From Agathobaculum sp. Marseille-P7918 (GTDB taxonomy: Bacteria; Bacillota; Clostridia; Oscillospirales; Butyricicoccaceae), in contig NZ_UYYD01000003.1 in the NCBI RefSeq assembly GCF_900625105.1, positions 62,001 through 126,000 of the forward strand: a stretch of 64,000 nt of DNA. The letters are read 5' to 3'. Numbering within the stretch: the stretch's first letter is position 1; every line of letters begins with the position of its first letter. The translations under genes and the position numbers were made by a program. The notes beneath the pieces were generated by a model. It was not told where the DNA came from. It saw only the letters and a program-made list of their open reading frames with translations, and searched no databases. Shown here piece after piece: positions 1 to 32,624 of the stretch.

Positions 1-920
1 TCTGCGGCAGCGACCTGGGTTCCTATCGCGGCGCGAACGCTTATGTATCCTATCCGCGTGTACCGGGCCACGAGTTTTCGGCGGAGATCATCGAGATCGA
101 TGACAACGACAAGGGCCTCAAGCCTGGCATGATCGTCACCTGCAACCCGTATTTCAACTGCGGCAGCTGCTATTCCTGCAAGCGCGGCCTGGTCAATGCC
201 TGCACGGACAACCAGACCATGGGCGTACAGCGCGAAGGCGCTTTTGCGGAGTACATCACCATGCCGATCGAGCGCATCTATGACGGCAAGGGCCTGGATC
301 CCAAGGTGCTGGCTCTGATCGAGCCGTTCTGCATCAGCTATCACGGCGTATCCCGTGCGGATGTCAAGCCGGGCGAGCGCGTGCTGGTTGTCGGCGCGGG
401 CACCATCGGCGTGCTGGCAGCGGTTGCGGCCAAGGCAAAGGGCGCTGAGGTTACCATCTGCGACGTAGCACCGGATAAGCTGGATTACGCTTACAAGACC
501 TTTGAGCTGGATCACAAGCTGCTCAACGAGTCGCCCGAGGCGTTTGAAAAGGGCGTTGCGGAGCTGACAAACGGCGACGGTTTTGACGTGACCATCGAAG
601 CGGTCGGTCTGCCGAACACCTTCCAGAACTGCATCGACGCTGCCTGCTTCGGCGCGCGCGTGGTTCTGATTGGCGTTTCCAAGCGCAACATTGAAGATTT
701 CTTCTTTACCATCATCCAGAAGAAGGAACTGAACATCTACGGTTCTCGCAACGCGATGAAGAAGGACTTCCTCGAACTGATCGATCTGGTCAAGGGCGGC
801 GGTGTAGCACTCGACAAGATCGTCACCAACACCTACAAGTGGACGGATGCTCCCAAGGCATTTGAGGAATTCGCGGCGAACGCCGGCAAGATGCTGAAGG
901 TTGTTATTGACTTCACCTGA
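1..920 (+). CDS. Zinc-dependent alcohol dehydrogenase, 5' end missing (hexonate 5-dehydrogenase-like)
   Basis: The frame is open from base 3, so the true start lies before the window; 305 codons are visible, and the medium-chain family is usually about 340. Visible features are the GHE motif for the catalytic zinc, a structural-zinc cysteine cluster (NCGSCYSCKRG) and the NAD-binding loop VVGAGTIGVLAA. The closest families that I recognise are L-galactonate, L-gulonate and L-idonate 5-dehydrogenases, which oxidise a hexonate to a keto-uronate. Its position ahead of a TRAP transporter, a tagaturonate reductase and an altronate dehydratase favours L-galactonate to D-tagaturonate. That substrate is inference from context; the enzyme class is secure. 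Confidence 0.85.
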   Translation, partial: CGSDLGSYRGANAYVSYPRVPGHEFSAEIIEIDDNDKGLKPGMIVTCNPYFNCGSCYSCKRGLVNACTDNQTMGVQREGAFAEYITMPIERIYDGKGLDPKVLALIEPFCISYHGVSRADVKPGERVLVVGAGTIGVLAAVAAKAKGAEVTICDVAPDKLDYAYKTFELDHKLLNESPEAFEKGVAELTNGDGFDVTIEAVGLPNTFQNCIDAACFGARVVLIGVSKRNIEDFFFTIIQKKELNIYGSRNAMKKDFLELIDLVKGGGVALDKIVTNTYKWTDAPKAFEEFAANAGKMLKVVIDFT

Positions 921-10085: not shown

Positions 10086-11057
10086 TTACAGGTCGAAGGT
10101 TTTAGCGCGGCCCTTTGCCGCGGTTTTTCCCGTTGCGGCGAGCAGCACGGACAGCGCTGAGGTCTGTTCCTTTTCGCGGGCGGCATCGCAGGCCGCGTCC
10201 ACATCGGCGGCGGTCAGCACGCCGAGCGACAGCAGAAAGGAGATCGCCGCGCTTTCGCCTGCGGCAGCGCAGGCGCGCAGCAGCGCGCCGCCGTGCGCGC
10301 GTAAGCAGTCAAGGTAGGCGTCGCGCGCCGCGTCCGACAGGGCATAGGGCACGGCCAGCCGCCGCGCGGCGACCCGCGCCGCGACCGCAAAGTCGTGCCG
10401 CTCGAGCAGGCCGGACAGCGCAAGGTCGTACTGCCGGAAGCTCAGCACGCCCGCGTCAAAGCACTGGCGGTAGCCGTAGCCCGCGCCGTGGATGCGGCGC
10501 TGGAAGATGTGCGCGGGGGAGAGGTCCTCGAGTTCCTCGGTGTAGGCGGGAAACAGCAGGCGCGCGGGCGCGCCGCCTGCAAACTGCACATCCAGCTCGC
10601 CCGCGTGCTCGCCCAGCAGCTTTTGCAGGCAGGTGGGGGCGCCGGGATCGGCGTGCAGTATAATGGTGCGCAGCGCGCGGCAGTTCATCAGCGCGCCGCC
10701 GCCGAAGTCGGTGACGGACTGGGGCAGCGTGATAGTTTCCAGCCGGCGGCAGTTGTAAAACGCGTAGCTGCCCACGCTTTGCAGCGCGGCGGGCAGCGTG
10801 ACGGAGCGGATCGCGTTCGCATCGTGCGTTGGTGCTGGGCCGCCGCAGCTGACGCGCACGGAAAAGGTCTCGCGGCCGGACAGATCGGGCGTGCGCTCGC
10901 TGAGCGCGTAGGGGCCAAGCTGCACAACCGGCACGCCGTCTATCGCATCGGGCAGCGTGACTGCGTCGTCGCGTGTCTCGCACCGCAGGATCGCGATGCC
11001 GCCCGATACGCGCGCGCAGGTCAGCAAAAGATCGTTTTCGCCTTGAATCACCGGCAT
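10086..11057 (-). CDS. Leucine-rich-repeat (BspA-like) protein of the MoxR/VWA operon
   Basis: This 323-residue protein starts at 11057 behind AGGAGG. Residues of about 30-140 contain LRR_5/BspA-type repeats (SVTLPAALQSVGSYAFYNC, then ETITLPQSVTDFGGGALMNC). The C-terminal half is helix-rich and Ala/Arg-rich, with pieces that resemble ankyrin-type helices. No signal peptide or membrane segment is visible, so it is probably cytoplasmic. It is the first gene of the minus-strand operon and may supply binding specificity. That role is a guess. Confidence 0.75.
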   Translation of the reverse strand: MPVIQGENDLLLTCARVSGGIAILRCETRDDAVTLPDAIDGVPVVQLGPYALSERTPDLSGRETFSVRVSCGGPAPTHDANAIRSVTLPAALQSVGSYAFYNCRRLETITLPQSVTDFGGGALMNCRALRTIILHADPGAPTCLQKLLGEHAGELDVQFAGGAPARLLFPAYTEELEDLSPAHIFQRRIHGAGYGYRQCFDAGVLSFRQYDLALSGLLERHDFAVAARVAARRLAVPYALSDAARDAYLDCLRAHGGALLRACAAAGESAAISFLLSLGVLTAADVDAACDAAREKEQTSALSVLLAATGKTAAKGRAKTFDL

Positions 11058-11096
11058 GCGGGGCCCTCCTTTTTCAGATGATTTTCGTCTGGATTG

Positions 11097-11125
11097 ATTA
11101 TAGCACAGCCGCGGCGGGGCGGCAA
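11097..11125 (-). promoter_or_regulatory. Promoter of the LRR-VWA-MoxR operon
   Basis: On the minus strand TTGCCG (11120-11125) and TATAAT (11097-11102) are separated by 17 bases. They lie about 40 bases upstream of the first gene of the operon. Confidence 0.65.
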
Positions 11126-11208
11126 GGCGCGGAAAAGACCGGCGAAGGGGCACCTCTTATGATAATAAAATATCATGGTAATAATTTATATTTTTTCTCA
11201 AAAACCGC

Positions 11209-11237
11209 TTGACAAACGGGTGTACTGCGAATATACT
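11209..11237 (+). promoter_or_regulatory. Promoter of the tryptophan T-box leader
   Basis: A perfect TTGACA (11209-11214) and TATACT (11232-11237) are separated by 17 bases. Transcription should start near 11244, at the head of the T-box RNA. Confidence 0.85.
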
Positions 11238-11243
11238 GTGACC

Positions 11244-11540
11244 ATACCGACAAACCAATGACGAAGACGAGTAGCAGGGAGACCGAACCTCCAAGAGAGT
11301 CGCGGGCGGTGAGATCGCGGCAGGCAAGGACCCGGTGAATGGACTTTAGCAGGGCAAGGCGAACGGGGGCGACCCCAAGTAACTGCGACGGGGACTCCAC
11401 CCGTTATCCGGGGAGCACATATTGTTGGATATGTGAAAGAGAGCGGGCGCATTGCTGCGTCAACTTGGGTGGTACCGCAAGAGTTTGTATTTTTTCAAGC
11501 TCCTGTCCCATGGATTTTCATGGGACGGGAGCTTTTTATT
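11244..11540 (+). ncRNA. T-box riboswitch, tryptophan specifier
   Basis: The leader of about 300 bases has all main T-box parts. There is a stem I region with an AGTA-type motif (ACGAGTAGC near 11270). The specifier loop GTGAATGGAC has TGG at 11340-11342. The conserved T-box TTGGGTGGTACCGC (11465-11478) follows, and then an intrinsic terminator. A UGG specifier means that uncharged tRNA-Trp would bind, favour the antiterminator and switch on the downstream tryptophan synthase beta gene. The specifier and the gene function agree, which makes the assignment strong. Confidence 0.95.
11497..11540 (+). terminator. T-box regulated terminator
   Basis: A 15-16-bp stem (AAGCTCCTGTCCCATG pairing with CATGGGACGGGAGCTT, one mismatch) is followed by TTTTTATT. 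It is the OFF structure that competes with the T-box antiterminator. Confidence 0.9.
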
Positions 11541-11582
11541 TTGTTTTCCCACATAATTTTCATATAAAGGAGAGAACCTACC

Positions 11583-12953
11583 ATGGCAAAGATTCCGCAC
11601 AGATTGTATTTAACCGAAGATCAGATGCCCAAGCAGTGGTACAACCTGCGCGCTGACATGAAGCAGCAGCCCGATCCACTCCTGCACCCCGGTACGCATG
11701 AGCCGCTGCCCGAGGAGGCGCTCTACCCGATCTTCTGTGAAAAGCTCGCGCATCAGGAGCTGGACAGCACGACCCGGTATTTCGATATCCCCGAGCCTGT
11801 GCTCGACATGTATAAGCTGTACCGTCCGTCGCCCCTGTGCCGCGCATACAATCTGGAAAAGGCGCTCGATACCCCGGCGAAGATCTACTACAAGTTCGAG
11901 GGCAACAACACCTCGGGCAGCCACAAGCTCAACTCGGCCATCGCACAGGCGTATTACGCCAAGGAGCAGGGCCTCAAGGGCCTGACGACCGAGACCGGTG
12001 CGGGCCAGTGGGGCACGGCGCTCTCCGAAGCGTGCGCGTACTTCGGGCTGGACCTCAAAGTCTACATGGTCAAGGTTTCCTATGAGCAGAAGCCGTACCG
12101 CAAGGCGGTCATGCAGACCTTCGGCGCAAATGTCACGCCTTCGCCGTCCAACACCACCGAAGCGGGCCGTGCGATCCTCGCGGAAAATCCGAACACCGGC
12201 GGCTCGCTCGGCTGCGCGATCTCCGAGGCGGTCGAAGTGGCCACCACGCATGAGGGTTACCGCTATGTGCTCGGCTCGGTGCTCAATCAGGTGCTGCTGC
12301 ACCAGTCCATCATCGGTCTGGAGAGCAAGCAGGCGATGGAGATGCTGGACGAATATCCGGATATCGTCATCGGCTGCGCGGGCGGCGGCTCCAATCTGGG
12401 CGGCCTGATTGCGCCGTTCATGCAGGATAAGCTGCTGGGCAAGGCCGACCCGCGCATCATCGCGGTCGAGCCTGCGTCCTGCCCGTCGTTTACCCGCGGC
12501 AAGTACGCGTACGACTTCTGCGACACCGGTCATGTGACCCCGCTGGCGCGTATGTACACGCTGGGCAACGGATTCATGCCGGCGGCCAACCATGCGGGCG
12601 GCCTGCGGTATCACGGCATGAGCCCGATCCTCTCCAAGCTGTATCACGACGGCTATATGGAAGCGGTTTCCGCCAAGCAGACCGACGTGTTCGATGCGGC
12701 GGTGCAGTTCGCCAAGGTCGAGACCATCCTGCCCGCGCCCGAGTCCAGCCACGCGATCCGCTGCGCGATCGACGAGGCGCTCAAATGCAAGGAGACGGGC
12801 GAGGCCAAGACCATTCTGTTCGGCTTGACGGGCACGGGATACTTTGATATGTCGGCGTACGAAGCATACCATAACGGCACGATGACGAATCATGTGCCGA
12901 GCGACGAGGAATTGCAGATCGGCTTTGATACGCTGCCGGCTCAGCCGGAATAA
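11583..12953 (+). CDS. trpB: Tryptophan synthase beta chain, TrpB2 type
   Basis: This 456-residue PLP enzyme belongs to the long TrpB2 branch (classical TrpB is about 400). The PLP lysine is K115 in TSGSHKLN, and the phosphate-binding loop GCAGGGSNLGG is present. It joins indole and serine to make tryptophan. There is no trpA or other trp gene beside it, so it probably salvages free indole or works with enzymes encoded elsewhere. Expression is controlled by a tryptophan T-box directly upstream. A ribosome site (AAAGGAGAG) precedes the ATG. Confidence 0.92.
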   Translation: MAKIPHRLYLTEDQMPKQWYNLRADMKQQPDPLLHPGTHEPLPEEALYPIFCEKLAHQELDSTTRYFDIPEPVLDMYKLYRPSPLCRAYNLEKALDTPAKIYYKFEGNNTSGSHKLNSAIAQAYYAKEQGLKGLTTETGAGQWGTALSEACAYFGLDLKVYMVKVSYEQKPYRKAVMQTFGANVTPSPSNTTEAGRAILAENPNTGGSLGCAISEAVEVATTHEGYRYVLGSVLNQVLLHQSIIGLESKQAMEMLDEYPDIVIGCAGGGSNLGGLIAPFMQDKLLGKADPRIIAVEPASCPSFTRGKYAYDFCDTGHVTPLARMYTLGNGFMPAANHAGGLRYHGMSPILSKLYHDGYMEAVSAKQTDVFDAAVQFAKVETILPAPESSHAIRCAIDEALKCKETGEAKTILFGLTGTGYFDMSAYEAYHNGTMTNHVPSDEELQIGFDTLPAQPE

Positions 12954-12983
12954 ACCCCATTCCCTGCGGAGGTGAGGCCTGCC

Positions 12984-13319
12984 GTGGATATGGCGGAGCA
13001 TGTGCTCACGTTTGCCGTTTCCTGGGCGATCCTGTTATTTGAATATGTTGGCGTGGCGGTGATCGCGGTTGCCGGTGCACAGGGCGTCTGGCATTATGTG
13101 CGCCGCGACCCGCTCACGCGCCTGACGTTGGCCAAAGGGCTGGCGATGGGGCTGGAATTCAAACTGGGCAGCGAGATCCTGCGCACGGTGATCGTGCGCG
13201 AACTGCGGGAGATCGCGTTGGTCGGCGCAATCATCGTGCTGCGCGCCGCGCTGACCGTGCTCATCCACTGGGAAATCAAAAACGAAGAGCAGGCCGCGGA
13301 AACCTTGCCGCAAGCCTGA
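12984..13319 (+). CDS. DUF1622 family membrane protein
   Basis: This 111-residue protein has an N-terminal hydrophobic helix, then a conserved segment around LAKGLAMGLEFKLGSEILRTV, and a second helix near the C-terminus, as in DUF1622. The GTG at 12984 is preferred because GGAGGTG (12968-12974) is 9 bases upstream; the GTG at 12972 lies inside that site. It begins 30 bases after trpB and should share its T-box control. Its function is unknown; co-transcription hints at a link to tryptophan or indole, but this is only positional. Confidence 0.8.
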   Translation: MDMAEHVLTFAVSWAILLFEYVGVAVIAVAGAQGVWHYVRRDPLTRLTLAKGLAMGLEFKLGSEILRTVIVRELREIALVGAIIVLRAALTVLIHWEIKNEEQAAETLPQA

Positions 13320-23198: not shown

Positions 23199-23690
23199 GC
23201 AATCATTTGCTCTTGCGCTTTTTTGATGCCGCGGTATTATGGGGGATGCTTGTTTGACCCGTAAGAAAACATCCAACCGGCAGATGGTCCCGCAGGGCAT
23301 GGCAACACCTTACGGGGCCATCGCCCCGGCACAAAGGAGGAAAAACATGTCCCTTTCCGATCAGAAACTCACAGGGTTCAGCAAAAAGATCACGCAGCTG
23401 GCCGACCAGCCGAACATGCAGCCGCAGGAGCTCAAGGCCTACTTTGACAGCAGTCCGGAGGAGCTGCGGCAGGCGCACAACGGCCTGTGCGACGCGCTAT
23501 GCGCGTCGGACGCTGCGGCCGGACTGGGCTTTGCGCGCTCCGCAGGCGTGCCAGCGGACACCGTGCAGGCCGCGGTCGAGAATGTGCAGCAGCAGGTGCG
23601 CGACGCGGTCGTCGGCAGCATCCCGTCCGGCAGCGTGGACGGCGACAAGCTCGCGCAGGACGTGCGCGACCGGTTTGCCGCGATCGAGAG
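23199..23690 (+). repeat. Left copy of a long inverted repeat (outer pair)
   Basis: About 490 bases repeat in inverted orientation at 32080-32572. They include an exact run of about 90 bases across the ribosome site and first codons of genes A and B, and scattered single-base differences elsewhere. The repeat holds the promoter, the 5' leader and the conserved N-terminal coding part of each gene. Its outer limit falls in the loop of the terminator hairpin at the right-hand copy. Confidence 0.9.
23213..23240 (+). promoter_or_regulatory. Promoter of gene A (repeated for gene B)
   Basis: TTGCGC (23213-23218) and TATTAT (23235-23240) are 16 bases apart and lie inside the inverted repeat, so gene B has the same promoter. 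The following leader has a GGATG/CATCC hairpin. Confidence 0.55.
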
Positions 23691-24099
23691 CGCAGCGGCA
23701 AACGAGGCGAGCGCCCGGGCGAGTGCAGACAGCCAGATGCAGAGCCTGCTTAGTACCCATACCAGCCAGATCGCGCAGAAGTGTGAGGTGTATATTGGCA
23801 CTTATACCGGCGACGGAAGCGAAGAGCGCACCATTCCGCTTGGATTCACCCCTAAAGCGGTACTGCTGATGACTACATGTGGCTATTCTGCTTTCGAGTT
23901 CGGATTTGCAAAGTATATGTATGGCGGCTTTGCCACGGCAAACGTGCCAGTTCAATTCTCATATGAAGATTCTATATATACGGTCGTGAAAATTGTTAAT
24001 AACGGATTTCAAGTTTTCAAAGGATCGACCGATGACGGAAAAAACTATGTTCAATCGAATTTGAATAGCTACCAATTTGTATATTTGGCATTCAAATAA
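23347..24099 (+). CDS. Phage-tail-like protein A with variable C-terminus
   Basis: This 250-residue protein starts at 23347 behind AAAGGAGG. The frame remains open upstream, but that part is not conserved in frame in copy B. Residues 1-115 are nearly identical to protein B and resemble tail-fibre N-termini (KLTGFSKKITQLADQP, FDSSPEELRQAHNGL), with a short coiled coil after them. The C-terminal third begins EVYIGTYTGDGSEERTIPLGF, a pattern common in phage receptor-binding or collar domains, and then diverges from B. No other phage genes are near. A surface or secreted adhesin role is a guess. Confidence 0.65.
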   Translation: MSLSDQKLTGFSKKITQLADQPNMQPQELKAYFDSSPEELRQAHNGLCDALCASDAAAGLGFARSAGVPADTVQAAVENVQQQVRDAVVGSIPSGSVDGDKLAQDVRDRFAAIESAAANEASARASADSQMQSLLSTHTSQIAQKCEVYIGTYTGDGSEERTIPLGFTPKAVLLMTTCGYSAFEFGFAKYMYGGFATANVPVQFSYEDSIYTVVKIVNNGFQVFKGSTDDGKNYVQSNLNSYQFVYLAFK

Positions 24100-24103
24100 C
24101 AAG

Positions 24104-24136
24104 AAAAGAGGCTGTTGCAATGCAACAGCCTCTTTT
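24104..24136. terminator. Bidirectional terminator between gene A and S1
   Basis: AAAAGAGGCTGTTGCA (24104-24119) pairs with TGCAACAGCCTCTTTT (24121-24136). It separates two convergent genes. Confidence 0.88.
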
Positions 24137-24156
24137 GTGGTGAACAGGAAAGACTA

Positions 24157-26661
24157 TTAGCCCTTGATCGGGGTAGTGTCATCCAGCTCGTTGTTCACAT
24201 CGATGAAGATTGCGAGCAGATCGTAAGTGCCGTCGTTGTTCTGAGTGTCAGCAACGTAAACCGCGTTCTTCTCGTAGGAACCTTCAACATTGTGATCGGT
24301 TGCAACGCGGATGCTGCCGCCTTCAACGCCCTCAACATCTTCCGTGTTCACGTAGATGATCTTGGTGTCGTCGGTGATGTTGTACTCGCCGTTGTTGCCA
24401 TAGAAGGTAACGGTCTCGCCGTCATAAGCCTTTACAGCAGACTGGGTATCGAGTACGGTGATCTCGTCGTCAACAACCTTGATGAAGTCGCCCTTCGCAG
24501 CATCCATGGTGCGGCTCTCAACCTTAACGGTTTCAACGTCAGAGCCGGTCCATACGCTGTAGGAAGCATAGTACTTGCTGTCCTCGCGGGTGATGCCCAG
24601 CGTAGCAACAACATAGCCGTAAACGTCATCCGAAGATGCGCCCGGAACGTCAGCTACTTCCAGAGCAGCCAGTTCAACGTACTGATAGCCGCTGGACTCG
24701 TTGGAGTAAGCGATACCAGTTGCAGCAACTTCCTTCCAAGCCTTGACCTGAGCGCCAGTCAGAACAGTGATGTCGCCATCGCTATCCTTAACGAAGACAA
24801 CCGCGTTGTCGTTGACACGCACGCCGCCGATGCGATCGTCGCCAGTCTTATCGCCAGATGCTACGGGCTTCGAAGCGTCAAAGTCGGTGTCATCGCCATT
24901 AGCGGAGATATTGCTCAGCATGTATTCGTCGCCATCCATGTCGAACGCATACAGGCCGTACTGAGCCTTCTTCGCGTCCTCGTCGGCATCCTTAGCAACA
25001 GCCGCAACAAGCGCGTTGTAGATCGTGTTGGCTTCCTTTTCGTCAGCATCGCCCTTAGCGTCGCCGTCGCTGATTACGATTTCCTTGGAAGTGCCGTCAG
25101 CGAATACTGCACGAGCGGTCAGGGTGTCGTCGCCGTAGCTCGTATCCAGCTTAACGCCGTTCAGGTAAACAACGTCGTCCATGGAGATCGCGCCGTCAGA
25201 CTCCTCAATGTAGTAGATGTAGCCGTTGACAACAACTGCGTCTACAGTGCTGCCCAGAGTTACGTCAGCAGCAACAGGCTGGGTCTCGCCATAGGTCTTA
25301 CCGTCGTTTGCCAGCGTGTAAACAGTGCCGTCGATGGTGATGTCGTCGCCGTTCTTAACTTCGACCTTGCCGGTGACTACGTCAGCCTTGGCAAAGGATT
25401 CCTTGTTGTTGTAGTCGTTGACGGACTTAACAACCCAGTCGTCCTTGGCATAGCCGTCGTACAGCTCGATATCGTCGATATCATAACCGGTGTCGATGGT
25501 TACGCGGGAAGAACCAACATAGGAAATCTGAGCAACTCGGAAATCAGAATCCGGAGTCAGCTTGTATACGTCGCCATCCTCGTTCAGAGTAACGGTTACC
25601 GGCTGAGCGGACTGATTCTTATCCATGTCGAGGCCGCCAAAATCGCAGCCATTAGCAACATCATAGGTGGTGCCGTTGACCTTGATTTCCTTCTTGGAAG
25701 CGCTGTAATCAGTGATATCGCCGAAGATGGTGTCGATGTAGGTCAGATCGCCGATCTCGAAGATGCCATAGATGGTAGCCTTGCCGTTAGCGGTGGAAGC
25801 AGCCTTGTACAGAACGCGAACTTCACGGCCAACCAGCTCGCTGCGATCAACGGTGTAATCGTTGAAACGTACGGAAACAGTGTCGCCGTTGGTGTTCTTC
25901 AGAGTACCCAGCTTGATCACGCCGTCATTGGTGTAGCCCTCAACGGTGGTCTCAACAGAGTTCAGATCCATGTACTTCTCGCCGATGGTCGGGTTCTTAA
26001 CACCGAGTACATTCAGGTTGGTGTACTCGCCGTCGCGCAGAACTACGGTCGGAGCAAAGATTGCATTGTACATCAGCTGAGCAGCGTACTGACGGGGCAT
26101 GCCCTGCGTGGTGCCGCAGTTAACGTCTTCCAGCAGGCCGTTCTCGTCAGCCAGAGCAGTGGTCTTGGCGCCCCAGCCAGTGCCAACCAGGCCAGCGTTA
26201 TCCGCATTGTAACCCAGGGTTACGAGCAGCATCTTGGCAGCTTCCTGCGTGGTAACGGTAGCGTCCGGATCAAAGCTGGTCGCGGACTTACCGGCGATGA
26301 TGCCGAGGGACTGGCAGTACTTGATGTAGCCACGAGCCCAGTGGTCGGTAATGTCGGTGAAAGTGGTAGCGTCGTTGTTGTACGCAGAAGCGTCAGAACG
26401 ACCGGTGCGGATAACGTAGATCATCTTCGCCATCTCCGCACGAGTTACGGTTGCGTCAGGCTGGAAGGAACCATCGGTATAACCGTTGATTACGCCCAGA
26501 GCAACCAGAGTATCCACGACGTCGGTATCGACTGCGAAGTCGGCCTCATCCGTGAATGCTGCGCCAGCAAACATGGTGAACGCACAAGCGAACGCCAGTA
26601 CCAGCGCGAGAACCTTTTTCTGATTCACTTTTGCCAAAAAGAAAAAACTGTTTTGATTCAT
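24157..26661 (-). CDS. SLH-domain S-layer protein S1, probably silent copy
   Basis: This intact protein of about 834 residues has a signal peptide and three N-terminal SLH domains (GYTDGSFQPDATVTRAEMAK, then FTDITDHWARGYIKYCQSLG, then a weaker third). They would bind the cell-wall polymer. A long beta-rich Asp/Val-rich body follows. The first 217 or so codons match S2 almost exactly, and the rest is only related. Unlike S2 it has no ribosome site. ATG 26661 and GTG 26628 both lack one, and no promoter lies in the 38 bases between it and the recombinase gene. It would be read only by run-through, or after inversion. Confidence 0.85.
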   Translation of the reverse strand: MNQNSFFFLAKVNQKKVLALVLAFACAFTMFAGAAFTDEADFAVDTDVVDTLVALGVINGYTDGSFQPDATVTRAEMAKMIYVIRTGRSDASAYNNDATTFTDITDHWARGYIKYCQSLGIIAGKSATSFDPDATVTTQEAAKMLLVTLGYNADNAGLVGTGWGAKTTALADENGLLEDVNCGTTQGMPRQYAAQLMYNAIFAPTVVLRDGEYTNLNVLGVKNPTIGEKYMDLNSVETTVEGYTNDGVIKLGTLKNTNGDTVSVRFNDYTVDRSELVGREVRVLYKAASTANGKATIYGIFEIGDLTYIDTIFGDITDYSASKKEIKVNGTTYDVANGCDFGGLDMDKNQSAQPVTVTLNEDGDVYKLTPDSDFRVAQISYVGSSRVTIDTGYDIDDIELYDGYAKDDWVVKSVNDYNNKESFAKADVVTGKVEVKNGDDITIDGTVYTLANDGKTYGETQPVAADVTLGSTVDAVVVNGYIYYIEESDGAISMDDVVYLNGVKLDTSYGDDTLTARAVFADGTSKEIVISDGDAKGDADEKEANTIYNALVAAVAKDADEDAKKAQYGLYAFDMDGDEYMLSNISANGDDTDFDASKPVASGDKTGDDRIGGVRVNDNAVVFVKDSDGDITVLTGAQVKAWKEVAATGIAYSNESSGYQYVELAALEVADVPGASSDDVYGYVVATLGITREDSKYYASYSVWTGSDVETVKVESRTMDAAKGDFIKVVDDEITVLDTQSAVKAYDGETVTFYGNNGEYNITDDTKIIYVNTEDVEGVEGGSIRVATDHNVEGSYEKNAVYVADTQNNDGTYDLLAIFIDVNNELDDTTPIKG
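25969..26619 (-). repeat. Inner inverted repeat, S1 copy (5' coding region)
   Basis: This 651-base stretch aligns without gaps to 29188-29838 of S2 in inverted orientation. Sampled 60-base blocks differ at between one and about six positions. Similarity begins sharply at the fifth S2 codon (AAAAAGGTTCTCGC) and does not extend into upstream sequence. Confidence 0.9.
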
Positions 26662-26695
26662 ACTGCCATAATAAGCAGATCGGATGCATTCGTCA

Positions 26696-26713
26696 ACGTC
26701 AATCCATTGACGT
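26696..26713. repeat. 18-bp palindrome across the recombinase stop codon
   Basis: The minus strand reads ACGTCAATGGATTGACGT: 7-bp perfect arms around a 4-base centre, overlapping the recombinase stop codon. The shape is that of a short recombinase or regulator site. I found no second copy by eye, so a crossover role is unproven. Confidence 0.35.
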
Positions 26714-27751
26714 ATCAAATAGTTGATCCAAGTGTGTGGCCATCTGTATCTTGTCGCTGTATGTCACATGGGCGTAGGTGTTGGCGGTGGTTGTAATATT
26801 GGCGTGCCCCAGCCATTCCTGGATCTGTTTGAGGGAAAACCCTTCCCGCAGCAGCAATGTTGCCGCAGAATGCCTCAAATCATGGAAGCGAATATGCGGC
26901 AGCCCTACATTCCGGCACAGCTTGGCAAATTCCTGTGAGATATAATCCGGCCGCAGCGGTTTTCCGTTATCCCGGCGGCAAACATAGTCGCTGTGATGGT
27001 AATCCGTGCCGTATCGCAGCTGCATTTCCTGCTGATGCTGCCGCAATTGCAGCAGATATTCCCGCATACCCTGCATCAGCGGCAGGGTGCGGTAGCTGGA
27101 ATCGGTTTTCACGCGGTCGCTGTAAGTTACTTTTCCGTTGCTGGAAATGGCGGTGTGATTGATTAAAACGGAATTGCTCTCAAAATCGATGGCCTGCCAT
27201 CTTAGGCCGGCAGCTTCGCTGCGGCGCAGGCCGTACATCGCCGCCAAGACAAACGCGGGTTCGGCGGGAGATGATTTGGCCGCTTTCAAAAACTGATGGA
27301 GCTGATGCTGGTCAAATGTGCGGCTGATGTATTTTACTTTTTTGGGCAGCATGACATGATCGGACGGATTGTGGTCGATCATGCCGCGGATCACAGCATA
27401 CCGCAGACATTTATGCACGATGGAATAGACCTTGATAATCGAGGTCGGCGAATACCCTTCCCGATATTTGGTATCGACAAAATCCTGAAAATCCGACAGG
27501 ACAGCCGATTGTACAGTCACCCGGCGCGGCCCGAAAAAAGGTTCGATATGCCGGCGGAACATATGCCAATAGCTGTCCAGCGTATTATGACGGATCTGCG
27601 TGGCCATCACATGCAGCCAATCCCGCATAAAATCGGTCAAAAAAATTTCCGGAGGCCTGGTATTGCATGACGGAAACGCGGCATCCAAAGAAGTGGAATT
27701 AAATGCAACATAAATGCAGCCATTTCTTTCAATATATGCCGGTTTCCTCAT
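26699..27751 (-). CDS. Tyrosine recombinase (phage/ICE integrase family)
   Basis: This 350-residue recombinase has an N-terminal SAM-like DNA-binding domain (about residues 35-130) and a complete catalytic set: R176 in GLRRSEA, K215, H290-R293 in HDLRH, H316 in WLGHAN and the nucleophile Y326. The start at 27751 has AAGGAG at a 6-base spacing. No excisionase or other mobile-element genes accompany it. It lies between two inverted S-layer genes and runs straight into S1, which suggests that it acts on this locus rather than on a mobile element; that is inference. Confidence 0.9.
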   Translation of the reverse strand: MRKPAYIERNGCIYVAFNSTSLDAAFPSCNTRPPEIFLTDFMRDWLHVMATQIRHNTLDSYWHMFRRHIEPFFGPRRVTVQSAVLSDFQDFVDTKYREGYSPTSIIKVYSIVHKCLRYAVIRGMIDHNPSDHVMLPKKVKYISRTFDQHQLHQFLKAAKSSPAEPAFVLAAMYGLRRSEAAGLRWQAIDFESNSVLINHTAISSNGKVTYSDRVKTDSSYRTLPLMQGMREYLLQLRQHQQEMQLRYGTDYHHSDYVCRRDNGKPLRPDYISQEFAKLCRNVGLPHIRFHDLRHSAATLLLREGFSLKQIQEWLGHANITTTANTYAHVTYSDKIQMATHLDQLFDTSMD

Positions 27752-27831
27752 GCAGTGCTCCTTACCTCTGGAAAGTTATCTCTGTGTTTGATGCAATCCA
27801 CCATGTCCGTCTTTGTCCTGTATGCCGCGGA

Positions 27832-28827
27832 TCATATTGGTTTTGCGTAGCCGTTTGGGTGTGTACGATGCCATGCCCATGCACTGGATATAATTGTGTT
27901 CAAATCGCTGTTGGCAGGCTTCCATCCCAAAATCGTCTGGGCAAGTTGGGTGGACGCGACCAGCATGGCAGGATCGCCTGCCCGGCGCGGCTGCTCGCAC
28001 ACCGGGATTTCGCGGCCGGTGATGCGCCGCACGACATCAATGATCTCGCGCACGGAAAAGCCTGTCCCGCTGCCCAGATTGACGATCAGGTTGTCCCCGC
28101 CGCGCAGCAGGTGCTGCATGGCAAGGATATGCGCCTGCGCCAGATCGCACACATGCACATAATCCCGGATGCAGGTGCCGTCCGGGGTGGGGTAGTCCGT
28201 CCCGAACAGCGAGATCGCAGACCGCTGACCGAGCGCCACCTGCAATACCAACGGAATCAGATGTGTTTCCGGGCAATGCGCTTCGCCGATCTGCCCGTCC
28301 GGCTGCGCCCCGCAGGCATTGAAATACCGCAGCGCGGCAAACCGAAGGCCATGCGCGCCGGATACCCAGTGCATCATCTGTTCCATCGCCAGTTTGGTGG
28401 CGCCGTAACAGTTGGTGGGCTGGGTTGGATCGCTCTCCCGAATCGGAAGGTGCTGCGCTTCTCCATATACCGCGGCGCTGGAGGAAAAGACAATGGTCTG
28501 CACGCCGTGCGCCAGCATGCTTTCCAGCAAAACCTGGGTGCCATATAAGTTGTTATGATAATATTGCAGGGGCTGCGTCATGCTTTGCCCCACTTGGGAG
28601 AGCGCAGCAAAATGAATCACGGCAGAAACCGATTCTCTGCAAAAAATTTCATCCAAAAACGTGCGGTCGCGCATATCACCCTGATAAAACCGCGCGCAGG
28701 CAGGCACAGCCGCCCGGAACCCGGTGCACAGATTATCCGCCACCGCGATCTCAAACCCTGCCGCAGCCAGTGCATGCGCCGTATGCGAGCCGACATATCC
28801 GGCGCCGCCTGTAATCAAGATGGACAT
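27832..28827 (-). CDS. galE: UDP-glucose 4-epimerase
   Basis: This 331-residue short-chain dehydrogenase has the NAD motif GGAGYVGSH at residues 7-15, Ser-Ser-Ser plus YGATK as the catalytic Ser and YxxxK pair, and typical GalE length. It interconverts UDP-glucose and UDP-galactose. It has its own promoter and lies between the two S-layer genes, ahead of the recombinase. Supplying galactose for S-layer or wall glycans is plausible because glycan genes follow at 32.6-38.1 kb. Confidence 0.93.
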   Translation of the reverse strand: MSILITGGAGYVGSHTAHALAAAGFEIAVADNLCTGFRAAVPACARFYQGDMRDRTFLDEIFCRESVSAVIHFAALSQVGQSMTQPLQYYHNNLYGTQVLLESMLAHGVQTIVFSSSAAVYGEAQHLPIRESDPTQPTNCYGATKLAMEQMMHWVSGAHGLRFAALRYFNACGAQPDGQIGEAHCPETHLIPLVLQVALGQRSAISLFGTDYPTPDGTCIRDYVHVCDLAQAHILAMQHLLRGGDNLIVNLGSGTGFSVREIIDVVRRITGREIPVCEQPRRAGDPAMLVASTQLAQTILGWKPANSDLNTIISSAWAWHRTHPNGYAKPI

Positions 28828-28898
28828 AGCAACCTTCCTTCCCAGCCTGCCGGATCGGGGCGGCTGCGTGGCCGCCCGGAAAGAGACAGGATAGTGGT

Positions 28899-28927
28899 AT
28901 TATACCCTGTCCCGTTCGAAACAGCAA
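28899..28927 (-). promoter_or_regulatory. Promoter of galE and the recombinase
   Basis: On the minus strand TTGCTG (28922-28927) and TATAAT (28899-28904) are 17 bases apart, about 70 bases ahead of galE. Confidence 0.7.
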
Positions 28928-29096
28928 GTATAATATAATAAGGTATACACCGGCGTTTTTTCAGTAAAACGGCCAGGAGAGGCCCCGGCAATTCAATGGC
29001 GGAGCATGTACTCTATCTCCTTGCAAGACAATGGAAAACGACAAAAATTACAGTATGTCACAATATTACACCCATGTTACATTCGCGGCACTTTGC

Positions 29097-29125
29097 TTGA
29101 CCGGTCCAAAAACCTGTGGTATCAT
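29097..29125 (+). promoter_or_regulatory. Promoter of the expressed S-layer gene S2
   Basis: TTGACC (29097-29102) and TATCAT (29120-29125) are 17 bases apart. A short leader with a GCGAAAGCTC element and the strong ribosome site AAGGAGG follow. Nothing comparable precedes S1. Confidence 0.75.
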
Positions 29126-29175
29126 AAACACCATAAAGGGCGAAAGCTCAAAAAAATTTAAGGAGGAAAAACCCC

Positions 29176-31590
29176 ATGAAGAATCTCAAAAAGGTTCTCG
29201 CACTGGTACTGGCGTTCGCTTGCGCGTTCACCATGTTCGCTGGTGCGGCATTCACGGACGAGGCCGACTTTGCAGTCGATACCGAGGTCGTGGATACCCT
29301 GGTTGCACTGGGCGTAATCGAAGGTTATACCGACGGTTCCTTCCAGCCGGACGCAACCGTAACTCGTGCGGAGATGGCGAAGATGATCTACGTCGTCCGC
29401 ACCGGTCGTTCTGACGCTTCTGCGTACAACAACGACGCTACCACTTTCACCGACATTACCGATCACTGGGCTCGCGGCTACATCAAGTACTGCCAGTCCC
29501 TCGGTATCATCGCCGGCAAGTCCGCGACCAGCTTTGATCCGGACGCTACCGTTACCACTCAGGAAGCTGCCAAGATGCTGCTCGTAACCCTGGGTTACAA
29601 TGCAGACAAGGCTGGCCTGGTTGGCACTGGCTGGGGCGCTAAGACCACCGCTCTGGCTGACGAGAACGGCCTGCTGAAGGACGTTAACTGCGGCACCACG
29701 CAGGGTATGCCCCGTCAGTACGCTGCTCAGCTGATCTACAACTCCATCTTCTCCTACACTGTTGTTCTGCGCGACGGTGAGTACACCAACATGAACCTGC
29801 TCGGTGCTAAGAACCCGACCATCGGCGAGAAGTACATGAGCCTGGTTAAGGACGAGTGGGTACTCGACGGCTACAAGGATAAGAAGGCTGTCTTCACCGC
29901 TAATGCGAACACCAAGGACAAGTCCGTTAAGTTCGAGGACTACACCGTTGATAAGTCTGAGCTGGTTGACAAGGCTGTAACCGTTCTGTACAAGATGGAC
30001 ACCAAGACCGACAAGGCTACCATCTACGGCATGTTCAAGGCTGACGACAACACCTACATGGACACCATCGTTGGTCAGATCACTGATCGCAGCAAGACCG
30101 ACACCATCAAGGTTGGCGGCACCAAGTACGACATCGCTGACGATGCTTCCAAGGCTGTTAAGGAGTGGGCTGACAGCAAGTCTGCACAGCCGGCTACCGT
30201 AGTTCTGGATAAGAACGGCGACGTTTACGACATTACCAAGGACACCGATTTTGCGGTTGGCAAGGTTACCTTCGTTGGCACCAAGACCGTTACCGTTGGC
30301 GGCAAGAGCTACAATGTTGAAGACGTTGACATGTACGACGGCATGGCTAAGGATGACTGGGCTGTTGTTTCTGTAAGCGACTACACCAACAACACCGTAT
30401 TCACCAAGGCTACTGTTGTTTCCGGCAAGGTTGACGTTGTAAATGGCGATGACTACACCATCGACGGCACTGTTTACACCAAGGCAAACGATAGCTTCGT
30501 GAAGTCTATCAGCGGCCTCGAGCTGGGCAACAAGGTTGATGTTGTTGTAGTGAACGGCTACATCTACAATGCTGAGAAGGTTTCCGGCATTGCTTCTCTG
30601 GAAGAGGTTGTTTACATTAACGGCACCAAGACCGACAACAACTACGGCAAGAAGACCGTTAAGGCACAGGCAATCTTCGCTAACGGCACCACTGCTGAAA
30701 TCAAGGTTGTTGACATCGAGGGCACCAAGGGCGACGCTCTGTACAATGCAGTAGATGCTGACGACACCAGCAAGAAGTTCAATGGCCTGTATGCGTTCGA
30801 TCTGGACGACGACGAGTACACCCTGAATGCGATTACCTCCGGCACCGACAAGGATGACTTCGAAGTTGCTGAAGGCACGACCGCAACCGCTGGCGATGAC
30901 AAGATCTCCGGCCTGCGCGTCAACGACGATGCTGTTGTATTCGTAGTTGACAAGGATGGCGACGTTTCCGTTAAGACCGGCAAGGAAGTTGCCGCTTGGA
31001 ACGCAGTAACTGTTGAGAAGGTTAACGCTTTCGCAAACAAGACCAATGGCGTTGCTTACGTTGAACTGGCTGCAGTTGTTATGAAGTCCAATCAGGATAT
31101 CCCGGGCTCTTCTTCTGACGCTGTTTACGGTTATGTTGTAAAGACCCTGGGCTCCACCAAGGAAGACAACACCACCTACAACTCTTACGAAGTTTGGACC
31201 TCCACCGGCCTGCAGACCATCAAGGTTAAGGCTGCGAACGACTTCGGCGCTGCCAAGAAGGACTTCGTGAAGTTCGAGAACGACAAGCTGACCAAGTCCA
31301 CCGCTAAGGTTGCTGCTATCACCGGCCTGGCTGGCGACAGCGTATACTTCGACAACGACTCTGTCAACGAGTACGTTATCACCGACGACACTCAGATCGT
31401 CTACATCAACGTAGAGGATGTTGAGGGCGTTGAAGGCGGTTCTCTGGTTGTTGCTGACGATCTCGACGGTGACAACACCAAGGAGAAGAACGTTGCATTC
31501 GAGGCTGAGACCACCAAGAACAGCGACGGCGCTTACGAACTGAAGGTTGTCTTCGTTGACGTTAACAACGACATTCAGAACGTTATCTAA
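29176..31590 (+). CDS. SLH-domain S-layer protein S2, expressed copy
   Basis: This 804-residue protein has a signal peptide ending near AGAAF and three N-terminal SLH domains that should bind the secondary wall polymer. The body is long, repetitive, beta-rich and rich in Asp, Lys, Val and Thr. Codon use is strongly narrowed (GGC, AAG, GTT, ACC), as in very highly expressed genes. The promoter and AAGGAGG site are good. The first 650 bases match S1 in inverted orientation; the C-terminal parts are related but distinct (both contain NVEDVEG/NTEDVEG-like and FVDVNN-like ends). It is probably the main surface-layer protein in this DNA configuration. Confidence 0.88.
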   Translation: MKNLKKVLALVLAFACAFTMFAGAAFTDEADFAVDTEVVDTLVALGVIEGYTDGSFQPDATVTRAEMAKMIYVVRTGRSDASAYNNDATTFTDITDHWARGYIKYCQSLGIIAGKSATSFDPDATVTTQEAAKMLLVTLGYNADKAGLVGTGWGAKTTALADENGLLKDVNCGTTQGMPRQYAAQLIYNSIFSYTVVLRDGEYTNMNLLGAKNPTIGEKYMSLVKDEWVLDGYKDKKAVFTANANTKDKSVKFEDYTVDKSELVDKAVTVLYKMDTKTDKATIYGMFKADDNTYMDTIVGQITDRSKTDTIKVGGTKYDIADDASKAVKEWADSKSAQPATVVLDKNGDVYDITKDTDFAVGKVTFVGTKTVTVGGKSYNVEDVDMYDGMAKDDWAVVSVSDYTNNTVFTKATVVSGKVDVVNGDDYTIDGTVYTKANDSFVKSISGLELGNKVDVVVVNGYIYNAEKVSGIASLEEVVYINGTKTDNNYGKKTVKAQAIFANGTTAEIKVVDIEGTKGDALYNAVDADDTSKKFNGLYAFDLDDDEYTLNAITSGTDKDDFEVAEGTTATAGDDKISGLRVNDDAVVFVVDKDGDVSVKTGKEVAAWNAVTVEKVNAFANKTNGVAYVELAAVVMKSNQDIPGSSSDAVYGYVVKTLGSTKEDNTTYNSYEVWTSTGLQTIKVKAANDFGAAKKDFVKFENDKLTKSTAKVAAITGLAGDSVYFDNDSVNEYVITDDTQIVYINVEDVEGVEGGSLVVADDLDGDNTKEKNVAFEAETTKNSDGAYELKVVFVDVNNDIQNVI
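29188..29838 (+). repeat. Inner inverted repeat, S2 copy (5' coding region)
   Basis: This is the partner of 25969-26619, of the same length (651 bases). The two face away from each other and flank the recombinase, galE and the S2 promoter, a segment of about 2.57 kb. Confidence 0.9.
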
Positions 31591-31653
31591 GTTCTCCCTT
31601 TGATTTGATGCAGCATTTCTTGATGATTTGCTGAATTGAATAAGGAAAGAAAT

Positions 31654-31686
31654 CGCCCATACCGGAAACGGTATGGGCGGTTTTTT
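31654..31686. terminator. Bidirectional terminator between S2 and gene B
   Basis: CGCCCATACCG (31654-31664) pairs with CGGTATGGGCG (31669-31679) around GAAA. A T run of six follows on the plus strand; the minus-strand side is only modestly T-rich. Confidence 0.85.
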
Positions 31687-32425
31687 ATTTCAATGCGATA
31701 TAATGATACACTTCATCAGATGTATTGGTGCATACACTGGAATACAGGCCGGAAAGGATTTTATTATAAACCTGAAATCCGTTTTGCACAATCGATAGGA
31801 TTGGGTAGATATTGCCCTCGTGATGATAGGCCGCAGGGACGTTCTGAAAAGCTAACCCACCGTAAAAACGATATGAATCACCATTTTCGTGGGTAATAAT
31901 GCCGTGCGAAGTCATTAACAAAACGGCTTTCGGCATAAAACCGAGAGAAATCGTGCGGGTTTCGGTGTCATCTCCGGTATAAGTGCCGACATATACTTCG
32001 CATTTGGTTGCGATCTGCGTGGTGTTGGTGCTGATCTGGCTCTGCATCTGACTGCGGATTGTGGCTTCCTCCTCCGCCTTGTTTTCGATTGCAGCGAACC
32101 GGTCGCGCACATCCTGTGCGAGCTTGTCGCCGTCCACGCTGCCGGACGGGATGCTGCCGACGACCGCGTCGCGCACCTGCTGCTGCACATTCTCGACCGC
32201 GGCCTGTACGGTGTCCGCGGGAACGCCCGCGGAGCGTGCAAAGCCAAGCCCGGCCGCGGCGTCCGACGCGCATAGCGCGTCGCACAGACCGTTGTGCGCC
32301 TGCCGCAGCTCCTCCGGGCTGCTGTCAAAGTAAGCTTTGAGCTCCTGCGGCTGCATGCTCGGCTGGTCGGCCAGCTGCGTGATCTTTTTGCTGAACCCTG
32401 TGAGTTTCTGATCGGAAAGGGACAT
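31685..32425 (-). CDS. Phage-tail-like protein B with variable C-terminus
   Basis: This 246-residue paralogue of protein A is in the opposite orientation. The N-terminal 115 residues are nearly identical to A, and the upstream promoter and AAAGGAGG site are also shared. The C-terminal domain starts with the same EVYVGTYTGD pattern and then differs in sequence. With S2 it forms the mirror image of the A-S1 pair on the left. Its role is unknown; the C-terminal pattern is typical of phage receptor-binding domains. Confidence 0.65.
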   Translation of the reverse strand: MSLSDQKLTGFSKKITQLADQPSMQPQELKAYFDSSPEELRQAHNGLCDALCASDAAAGLGFARSAGVPADTVQAAVENVQQQVRDAVVGSIPSGSVDGDKLAQDVRDRFAAIENKAEEEATIRSQMQSQISTNTTQIATKCEVYVGTYTGDDTETRTISLGFMPKAVLLMTSHGIITHENGDSYRFYGGLAFQNVPAAYHHEGNIYPILSIVQNGFQVYNKILSGLYSSVCTNTSDEVYHYIALK

Positions 32426-32572
32426 GTTTTTCCTCCTTTGTGCCGGGGCGGCGGTCCGCAAAGCGCTGCCGCGCCCTGCGGAACCGTCTGCCGGTTGGAT
32501 GTTTTCTTACGGGTCAAACAAGCATCCCCCATAATACCGCGGCATCAAAAAAGCGCAAGAGCAAATGATTGC
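32080..32572 (-). repeat. Right copy of the long inverted repeat (outer pair)
   Basis: This is the partner of 23199-23690. The outer end lies next to the loop of the terminator hairpin of the following glycan gene, so the left copy has only one arm of that hairpin. Confidence 0.9.
32531..32558 (-). promoter_or_regulatory. Promoter of gene B
   Basis: On the minus strand TTGCGC (32553-32558) and TATTAT (32531-32536) are 16 bases apart, identical to the promoter of gene A. Confidence 0.55.
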
Positions 32573-32585
32573 TCTTGCGCTTTTT
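32548..32585. terminator. Terminator of the O-antigen ligase-like gene
   Basis: A 15-bp perfect stem AAAAAGCGCAAGAGC (32548-32562) pairs with 32571-32585. It lies 40 bases beyond the stop of the minus-strand gene and overlaps the promoter of gene B. Confidence 0.85.
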
Positions 32586-32624
32586 GCGTGTCAGATTTGC
32601 CCGGCAAAAGATTGCCGTCCAGCG

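Follow-up and report, generated by a model that had tools for sequence, protein, structure and literature searches.

A predicted S-layer gene switch with a single expression site in Agathobaculum

Introduction

The switching of coat genes by DNA inversion is best known from pathogens such as those that carry the sap, vsa and vpma systems. For Campylobacter fetus, Dworkin and Blaser reportedly described in 1996 surface-layer (S-layer) genes served by a single promoter on an invertible segment. The sap system is RecA-dependent and is not known to have a dedicated recombinase; its segment includes secretion genes, and its proteins are not known to have a signal peptide. Here we analyse a 64,000-nucleotide stretch of DNA, called the window below (G000:C23:62001-126000 in our numbering of genomes and contigs), from a genome of 2.83 Mb in 36 contigs whose host belongs to Agathobaculum as GTDB draws the genus, a group that we take to be gut butyrate producers. 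The window contains two SLH protein genes, S1 and S2, in inverted orientation on either side of a tyrosine recombinase gene, and we propose that they form a switch. As in sap, S-layer genes would share a single promoter on a (here predicted) invertible segment; unlike sap, the proteins are of the SLH type with a signal-peptide-like start, and a recombinase gene and a galE-like gene lie in the segment.

The S-layer proteins of Lactobacillus acidophilus are non-SLH proteins. Inversion of the slp segment in that species swaps an active for a silent S-layer gene, slpB being the one without a promoter (excerpts of PMC6015585). Whereas slpA/slpB comprises two genes, two to seven copies are present here in genomes where several were found, and a recombinase mostly tracks them. 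The cwpV/RecV system is an on/off inversion upstream of genes, with no known exchange of alternative coding bodies. Portions of two papers on Clostridioides difficile describe phase-variable surface or flagellar genes and the inversion of a switch sequence by RecV (PMC2784873, PMC8890394). At the present locus, unlike cwpV/RecV, alternative coding bodies are predicted to be exchanged in place of an upstream on/off element.

In excerpted form, the accounts of Mycoplasma pulmonis vsa and M. agalactiae vpma combine one promoter with silent surface genes and site-specific inversions (PMC2268961, PMC4534519). In vsa the promoter, ribosome-binding site (RBS) and 5' part of the coding region, the first 714 nt of which move, are placed before a silent 3' body, with a recombinase gene nearby; for Xer1, the sites are proposed to be in 5' untranslated regions (excerpts of PMC2268961). 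The window resembles vsa (HvsR) and vpma (Xer1) in having one expression site, silent bodies and a recombinase gene close by. The mycoplasma proteins are lipoprotein antigens, whereas those here are SLH proteins, and the crossover is predicted here to fall in a stretch of about 65 nt inside the part that encodes the signal peptide, which differs from what the excerpts of PMC2268961 give for vsa and Xer1. The features that we found in common with the vsa, vpma and sap kind are a single copy with expression signals, start-less silent copies that share a 5' site, and inverted orientation. By analogy, the locus appears to work like vsa and, among S-layer systems, to resemble sap and slp. Searches of an open-access library turned up no report of a coat switch in Agathobaculum or Butyricicoccus, and the main text of a gut inverton paper (PMC11892184) has no occurrence of Agathobaculum, Butyricicoccus, S-layer, SLH or surface layer.

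Results

S2 (29176..31590, plus strand, 804 amino acids; SLH E 1.3e-22) lies at the expression site, and S1 (24157..26628, minus strand; SLH E 8.9e-23) is a silent gene body whose reading frame runs from the GTG at 26628-26626 and is intact over about 820 codons. A profile search gave two PF00395 stretches in each. The S proteins have a signal-peptide-like hydrophobic N terminus, judged by reading the translation, and S1 and S2 probably form the S-layer. A preceding reading of the sequence alone (the sequence-only reading) had described them as SLH-type genes on opposite strands, with near-identical inverted 5' coding sequence and a complete tyrosine recombinase and galE between them. All of this was borne out. 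The shared sequence is an inverted repeat of 658 nt (left arm 25969..26626, right arm 29181..29838) whose arms, also aligned base by base, are 93% complementary at a spacing of 2554 nt, and a chance repeat is ruled out because the two arms are the only DNA matches in the whole genome. The intervening genes, both on the minus strand, encode a recombinase of 350 amino acids (26699..27751; Phage_integrase PF00589, E 7.1e-29), whose stop codon lies 79 nt before the S1 island described below, and a galE-like, NAD-dependent epimerase (27832..28827; profile match).

The match between S1 and S2 runs inward from about the second or third S2 codon, and outside this there is no match. Upstream of S2 are the promoter hexamers TTGACC-17-TATCAT (29097..29125, plus strand) and the Shine-Dalgarno sequence AAGGAGG (29160..29166, plus strand), followed by the ATG at 29176; active copies in relatives have similar hexamers at a similar upstream distance. 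An ATG and a Shine-Dalgarno sequence were looked for in S1 at the place that matches the S2 start, and neither was found. Promoter-like hexamers close to the consensus (TTGACG-17-TATTAT, 26696-26668, minus strand) stand upstream of S1 with no evident Shine-Dalgarno sequence following, and the in-frame GTG, TTG and ATG codons upstream have no evident one either. To judge from these signals, S1 may be transcribed without an obvious translation start, and may be weakly translated from the upstream in-frame codons. An in-frame ATG at 26661 lies near the S1 hexamers, and an untranslated or leaderless transcript could result.

We consider it probable that this locus is an S-layer switch with one expression site, operating by inversion between two sites, for which the window's tyrosine recombinase is the most likely enzyme. 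The expression site would comprise the promoter, Shine-Dalgarno sequence, start codon and first four codons (ATGAAGAATCTC) before S2, and S1 would be a complete body without a usable start. Both bodies would begin, in inverted orientation, with a common site of about 65 nt starting AAAAAGGTTCTCGC (S1 copy of this crossover island 26555..26619, minus strand, 65 nt, starting AAAAAGGTTCTCGCGCTGG; S2 copy 29188..29252, plus strand, 65 nt, starting AAAAAGGTTCTCGCACTGG). Recombination between the sites would flip a segment of about 2.57 kb, with a predicted minimal extent of 26620..29187, that holds the recombinase and galE-like genes together with the promoter, RBS and start codon; S1 would then be joined in frame to the expression signals and S2 left start-less. 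The sequence-only reading had expected such an inversion to join the start signals to S1, and an inversion made in silico within the island indeed leaves S1 uninterrupted and in frame, with 824 residues and the start MKNLKKVLALVL. The recombinase, encoded inside the segment in the window, would act in trans where its gene is located elsewhere.

A 32-nt degenerate pattern was derived from the observed 5' ends and applied to 25 genomes of the genus and 87 of the family; as it was derived from most of the sequences that it matches, the exactness of its matches is no evidence in itself. S2 has matches in all 25 genus genomes, weak SLH-only matches included, and the 5' site pattern is present in 20 of them. 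Family-wide, the site occurs at 57 places in 26 of the 87 genomes, a reversed control pattern gave no match, and neither did a scan of the site pattern against viral contig records. With an active copy defined by an upstream GGAGG, 4-13 nt and then ATGAAGAATCT[CGT], there are 26 active and 30 silent copies, and one at a contig start (G030) without upstream DNA to read; two of the three copies in G027 lie at contig ends and are possibly one copy counted twice. The silent copies are spread over 14 genomes of two genera, and by these matches the system is multi-copy and reaches a second genus. None of the 30 has an RBS with a ATGAAGAATCT start, and one in G008 has an AGGAG-like stretch. Exactly one active copy was found in each of the ten genomes that have silent copies plus a located active copy (G000, G001, G002, G003, G004, G005, G008, G011, G024 and G045); in four further silent-copy genomes (G007, G013, G021 and G046; 81-86% complete) no active copy was located. 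By hand count, 17 of 18 neighbouring copy pairs are in opposite orientation (contigs of G000, G001, G002, G004, G005 and G045), as against neither of the two pairs in the recombinase-less G026 and G027.

Promoter-like hexamers reach p<=0.05 against base shuffles in 6 of the 30 silent flanks (the window, G001, G003, two in G021, and G045), and promoterlessness was therefore dropped as a mark of silence. It is the missing start that marks silent copies, and S1 is better termed start-less than promoterless.

Across relatives, the shared region narrows to about 65 nt within the signal-peptide coding sequence. Up to the fifth codon there is no relation between active and silent copies, and a 6-nt identity profile shows sharp island edges: active-silent pairs have a mean identity of 0.29 in the 30 nt that precede the island (24 pairs), 0.98 over island nt 0..65 (n = 21) and 0.70 over nt 65..150 after the island start (n = 19). 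The first 60 island nt have a mean identity of 0.98 within a genome and 0.88 between genomes. Three multi-copy genomes without a recombinase (G026, G027 and G050) have an RBS and start of their own on every readable copy, and these promoter-bearing paralogues are 0.97-1.0 identical over the 30 nt before the island.

Two close relatives hold different bodies at one expression site. G004 and G005 (4.0 Mb, one contig) can be aligned for about 5.9 kb, through the start of the active gene, with 96.7% identity; from a point inside the island, the G004 active body instead matches G005 silent copy 4 in reverse complement, at 98.3% identity for 2.7 kb. Before the island, G004 equals the G005 active copy at 60 of 60 nt and matches the G005 silent copy at 35%, whereas over 116 nt after the island it matches the silent copy at 100% and the active copy at 53%; the switch of body falls in the first 50 nt of the island. 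Such a junction is what inversion between copies 1 and 4 would leave. A comparison of the locus among related genomes, which had been suggested as a check, thus gave opposite copies in 17 of 18 pairs and a differing body at an identical expression site; together with the single active copy (10 of 10 genomes), the sharp island edges and a recombinase that mostly tracks silent copies, it supports the earlier idea of a switch, similar to those known, in a clostridium.

The window's recombinase is complete and of the integrase type. Residues R176, K215, H290, R293, H316 and Y326, read from the sequence, are present, and we take them to be the catalytic motif of tyrosine recombinases (R, K, HxxR, H, Y). 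A housekeeping XerC/XerD identity was rejected, with XerC at 112 bits against a cut-off of 335 and XerD at 92 against 330 (NCBIfam equivalog). At a homologue threshold of E<=1e-75, the recombinase occurs in 14 of the 87 family genomes, which by identity to the window's protein alone form group A (the window, G006, G007 and G045; 61-77%) and group B (53-59%). Tallied by hand, 11 of the 14 silent-copy genomes have it, as against none of 12 genomes with the site in which no silent copy was seen (Fisher p 4.9e-5, or 1.2e-4 without G030 and its unreadable copy, values that are too small, as the genomes share ancestry); among genomes at least 90% complete the counts are 8 of 8 and 0 of 8. The gene adjoins an S copy in the window, G007:C23, G011:C22 and G045. 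The last, sole carrier outside the genus among the family genomes, has seven site copies, one of them active, and the recombinase gene is flanked by the active copy and a silent one. By a pattern picked after inspection, with 5 silent copies of G021, G024 and G046 left out, all 17 silent copies in group-B genomes have GC[CA]AT in the 8 nt left of the island, and none of the 8 in group-A genomes does; this stretch may be part of the recombinase's site. The evidence for a role of the recombinase is correlative.

Group-B recombinase genes often stand beside other large surface-type genes, SLH-like by reading (L064, L065, L068, L071, L072 and L079), and in G022 one stands beside such genes though the genome has no S site. 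The group-B recombinase may have further targets; in five group-B loci examined away from S genes, no convincing inverted repeat was found. G006 has an intact group-A recombinase (71%; G006:C6:3516-4559, L067) and no S site was found there; its target may be another one, or the S locus lost or unassembled. The notion that this gene is decayed was withdrawn, as the stop at residue 348 is the natural end and the protein is intact to 347. In a 394-genome sample of the order, 12 genomes have a recombinase match at E<=1e-75, five of them outside the family at 40-44% identity (G087, G263, G132, G415 and G090). On the stretches examined of these five there is no match at E<=1e-3 to S1, S2 or the partner genes described below, and no inverted repeat of at least 30 nt save one 41-nt pair in L138; the open reading frames read as ordinary integrases, and these distant relatives were rejected as the same system.

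Contig ends lie within about 400 bases of an island in G003, G004, G008, G011, G013, G021, G024, G027, G030 and G046, as repeats or mixed orientations would cause. In G002 (L043, about 10944-13115), two regions that resemble S C termini face opposite ways, have no 5' island and are possible orphan bodies.

Discussion

Several observations weigh against a switch driven by this recombinase. The hexamers upstream of S1 score 10.5, the same as those of the S2 promoter, so that of the earlier claim that the only good promoter and ribosome site belong to S2, the ribosome-site part stands and the promoter part falls. Among 18 full-length active-silent pairs, the window's pair of islands has the lowest identity, 92% over 60 nt, and exchange here may therefore be rare or old. 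No significant dyad was found (p 0.2-0.75 against shuffles), and a dyad core site was rejected, as none exceeds shuffles. The best match for nt 0-60 is in the same genome for 21 of 25 copies (G004 and G005 not cross-compared), but this test adds little because the same holds for 17-19 of 25 copies in later windows; for nt 0-30 it holds for 8 of 25, ties being scored as misses. Fourfold third positions are conserved in the islands of recombinase-less genomes (0.85 against 0.67 elsewhere) as well as of recombinase-bearing ones (0.67 against 0.51), so that island conservation between species is not recombinase-specific, and it was dropped as a sign of recombination. At E<=1e-75 three silent-copy genomes have no recombinase (G021, G024 and G046; 82-83% complete), and three have a recombinase without the site (G006, 94% complete; G014, 76%; G022, 97%). 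The gene is on another contig in G002-G004 and G008 and far away in G005; the built-in recombinase of the sequence-only reading does not extend to these five. Finally, one clean inversion does not account for all the differences between G004 and G005. Copies 2 and 3 enclose a block that has the same orientation in both, the G005 locus offers no long match to the 3' part of the second G004 gene, and the G005 active body was looked for in the G004 assembly and not found.

Some of these points would suit a switch that is real and driven by RecA, through homologous recombination across the shared 5' repeats as in sap, with the recombinase as a passenger. For such a mechanism the window offers 658 nt of 93% homology, G002-G005 and G008 are without a related recombinase beside their S genes, three genomes combine a recombinase with no site, and the search for a dyad core came back empty. 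Several relatives, however, share just about 65 nt between active and silent copies before identity drops to 0.6-0.8. The recombinase also mostly tracks silent copies across the family, and the 8-mer left of the silent-copy island differs with the recombinase group, by that post hoc pattern (17/17 against 0/8). We regard the RecA-driven version as unlikely.

Less likely still is gene conversion, in which silent bodies would be copied into the expression site with no reciprocal inversion. One-way replacement would leave the state of G004, whose expression site holds silent body 4 of G005 and in whose assembly the G005 active body was not found; against this, neighbouring copies alternate in orientation in 17 of 18 hand-counted cases, a regularity that conversion would not require, and just three G004 sites are assembled, the contig ending inside the third, so that the missing body may be unassembled. 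Inversion rather than gene conversion probably caused the pattern.

That there is no switch at all, S1 and S2 being an old inverted duplication with S1 weakly expressed from its own promoter-like sequence or dead, is highly improbable: both arms with the partner genes do form one large palindrome, S1 does have TTGACG-17-TATTAT and in-frame upstream start codons, and the arms have drifted by 7% with the window's islands as the least identical active-silent pair, but the S1 frame is intact over its roughly 820 codons, the start-less arrangement recurs with the same edge in 30 copies from 14 genomes of two genera, and one body is silent in one relative and at the expression site in another.

Under the favoured reading, a switch by recombinase-mediated inversion, the signs of coat switching extend to commensals of two genera, Agathobaculum and another, with as many as seven copies and with named strains in culture among the carriers. 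It would plausibly serve the evasion of phages or host immunity. If it is real, one genome sequence displays just one of several coats, a possible route by which these commensals evade phages or antibodies becomes open to test, and the 32-nt pattern can be used to count coat states in long-read data.

Partner genes and the outer repeat

The gene order in the window is partner 1 (plus strand), S1 (minus), recombinase (minus), galE-like gene (minus), S2 (plus) and partner 2 (minus); next come a Wzy_C gene (minus) and a glycosyltransferase-like gene (minus), the latter named by reading only. Partner 1 (23347..24096, plus strand, 250 amino acids) is convergent with S1 and partner 2 (31688..32425, minus strand, 246 amino acids) with S2. 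Both are tail-fibre-like, and their match to the phage tail-fibre family phrog_14469 (E 6.9e-15 and 7.7e-15, respectively) lies at the N terminus; no other partner matches occur in the window's genome. A convergent partner accompanies S copies in many relatives, with GGAGG before the start in 28 of 29 examples, and was not found on the stretches examined of G002, G004, G005 and G023. Since the partners carry their own start signals, they should stay on when the S islands recombine by inversion. The six partners of G001 are nearly alike over the first 65 or so residues and differ in their C-terminal part. In a predicted model of the partner, a long helix is joined to a beta-rich head that is modelled with confidence (mean pLDDT 79.6, pTM 0.46). 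In a viral structure library it matched tail-fibre and H-type lectin proteins at E 1e-5 to 2e-3, although the TM-scores were low (0.24-0.30), and among solved structures (PDB) it had no match at E<=0.001.

A speculative and rather doubtful extension is that recombinase-linked coat variation in these two gut-commensal genera often has as its unit a start-less SLH gene with a convergent tail-fibre-like partner of constant N terminus and variable head, the coat and a matched binding protein diversifying together. If this were so, the partner might recognise or decorate its own coat, or act against phages or rivals.

An outer inverted repeat (left arm 23199..23698, right arm 32074..32572; 117 + 384 nt at 93%) spans this second gene pair, its left arm covering the 5' half of the partner gene and its leader. 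All the repeats centre roughly on 27.9 kb, so that the whole locus forms a single large palindrome whose middle holds the recombinase and galE-like genes. By reading, the outer repeat starts within a stem-loop 3' of the Wzy_C gene (23199-23240 and 32530-32590), so that the edge of the duplication lies in a palindrome.

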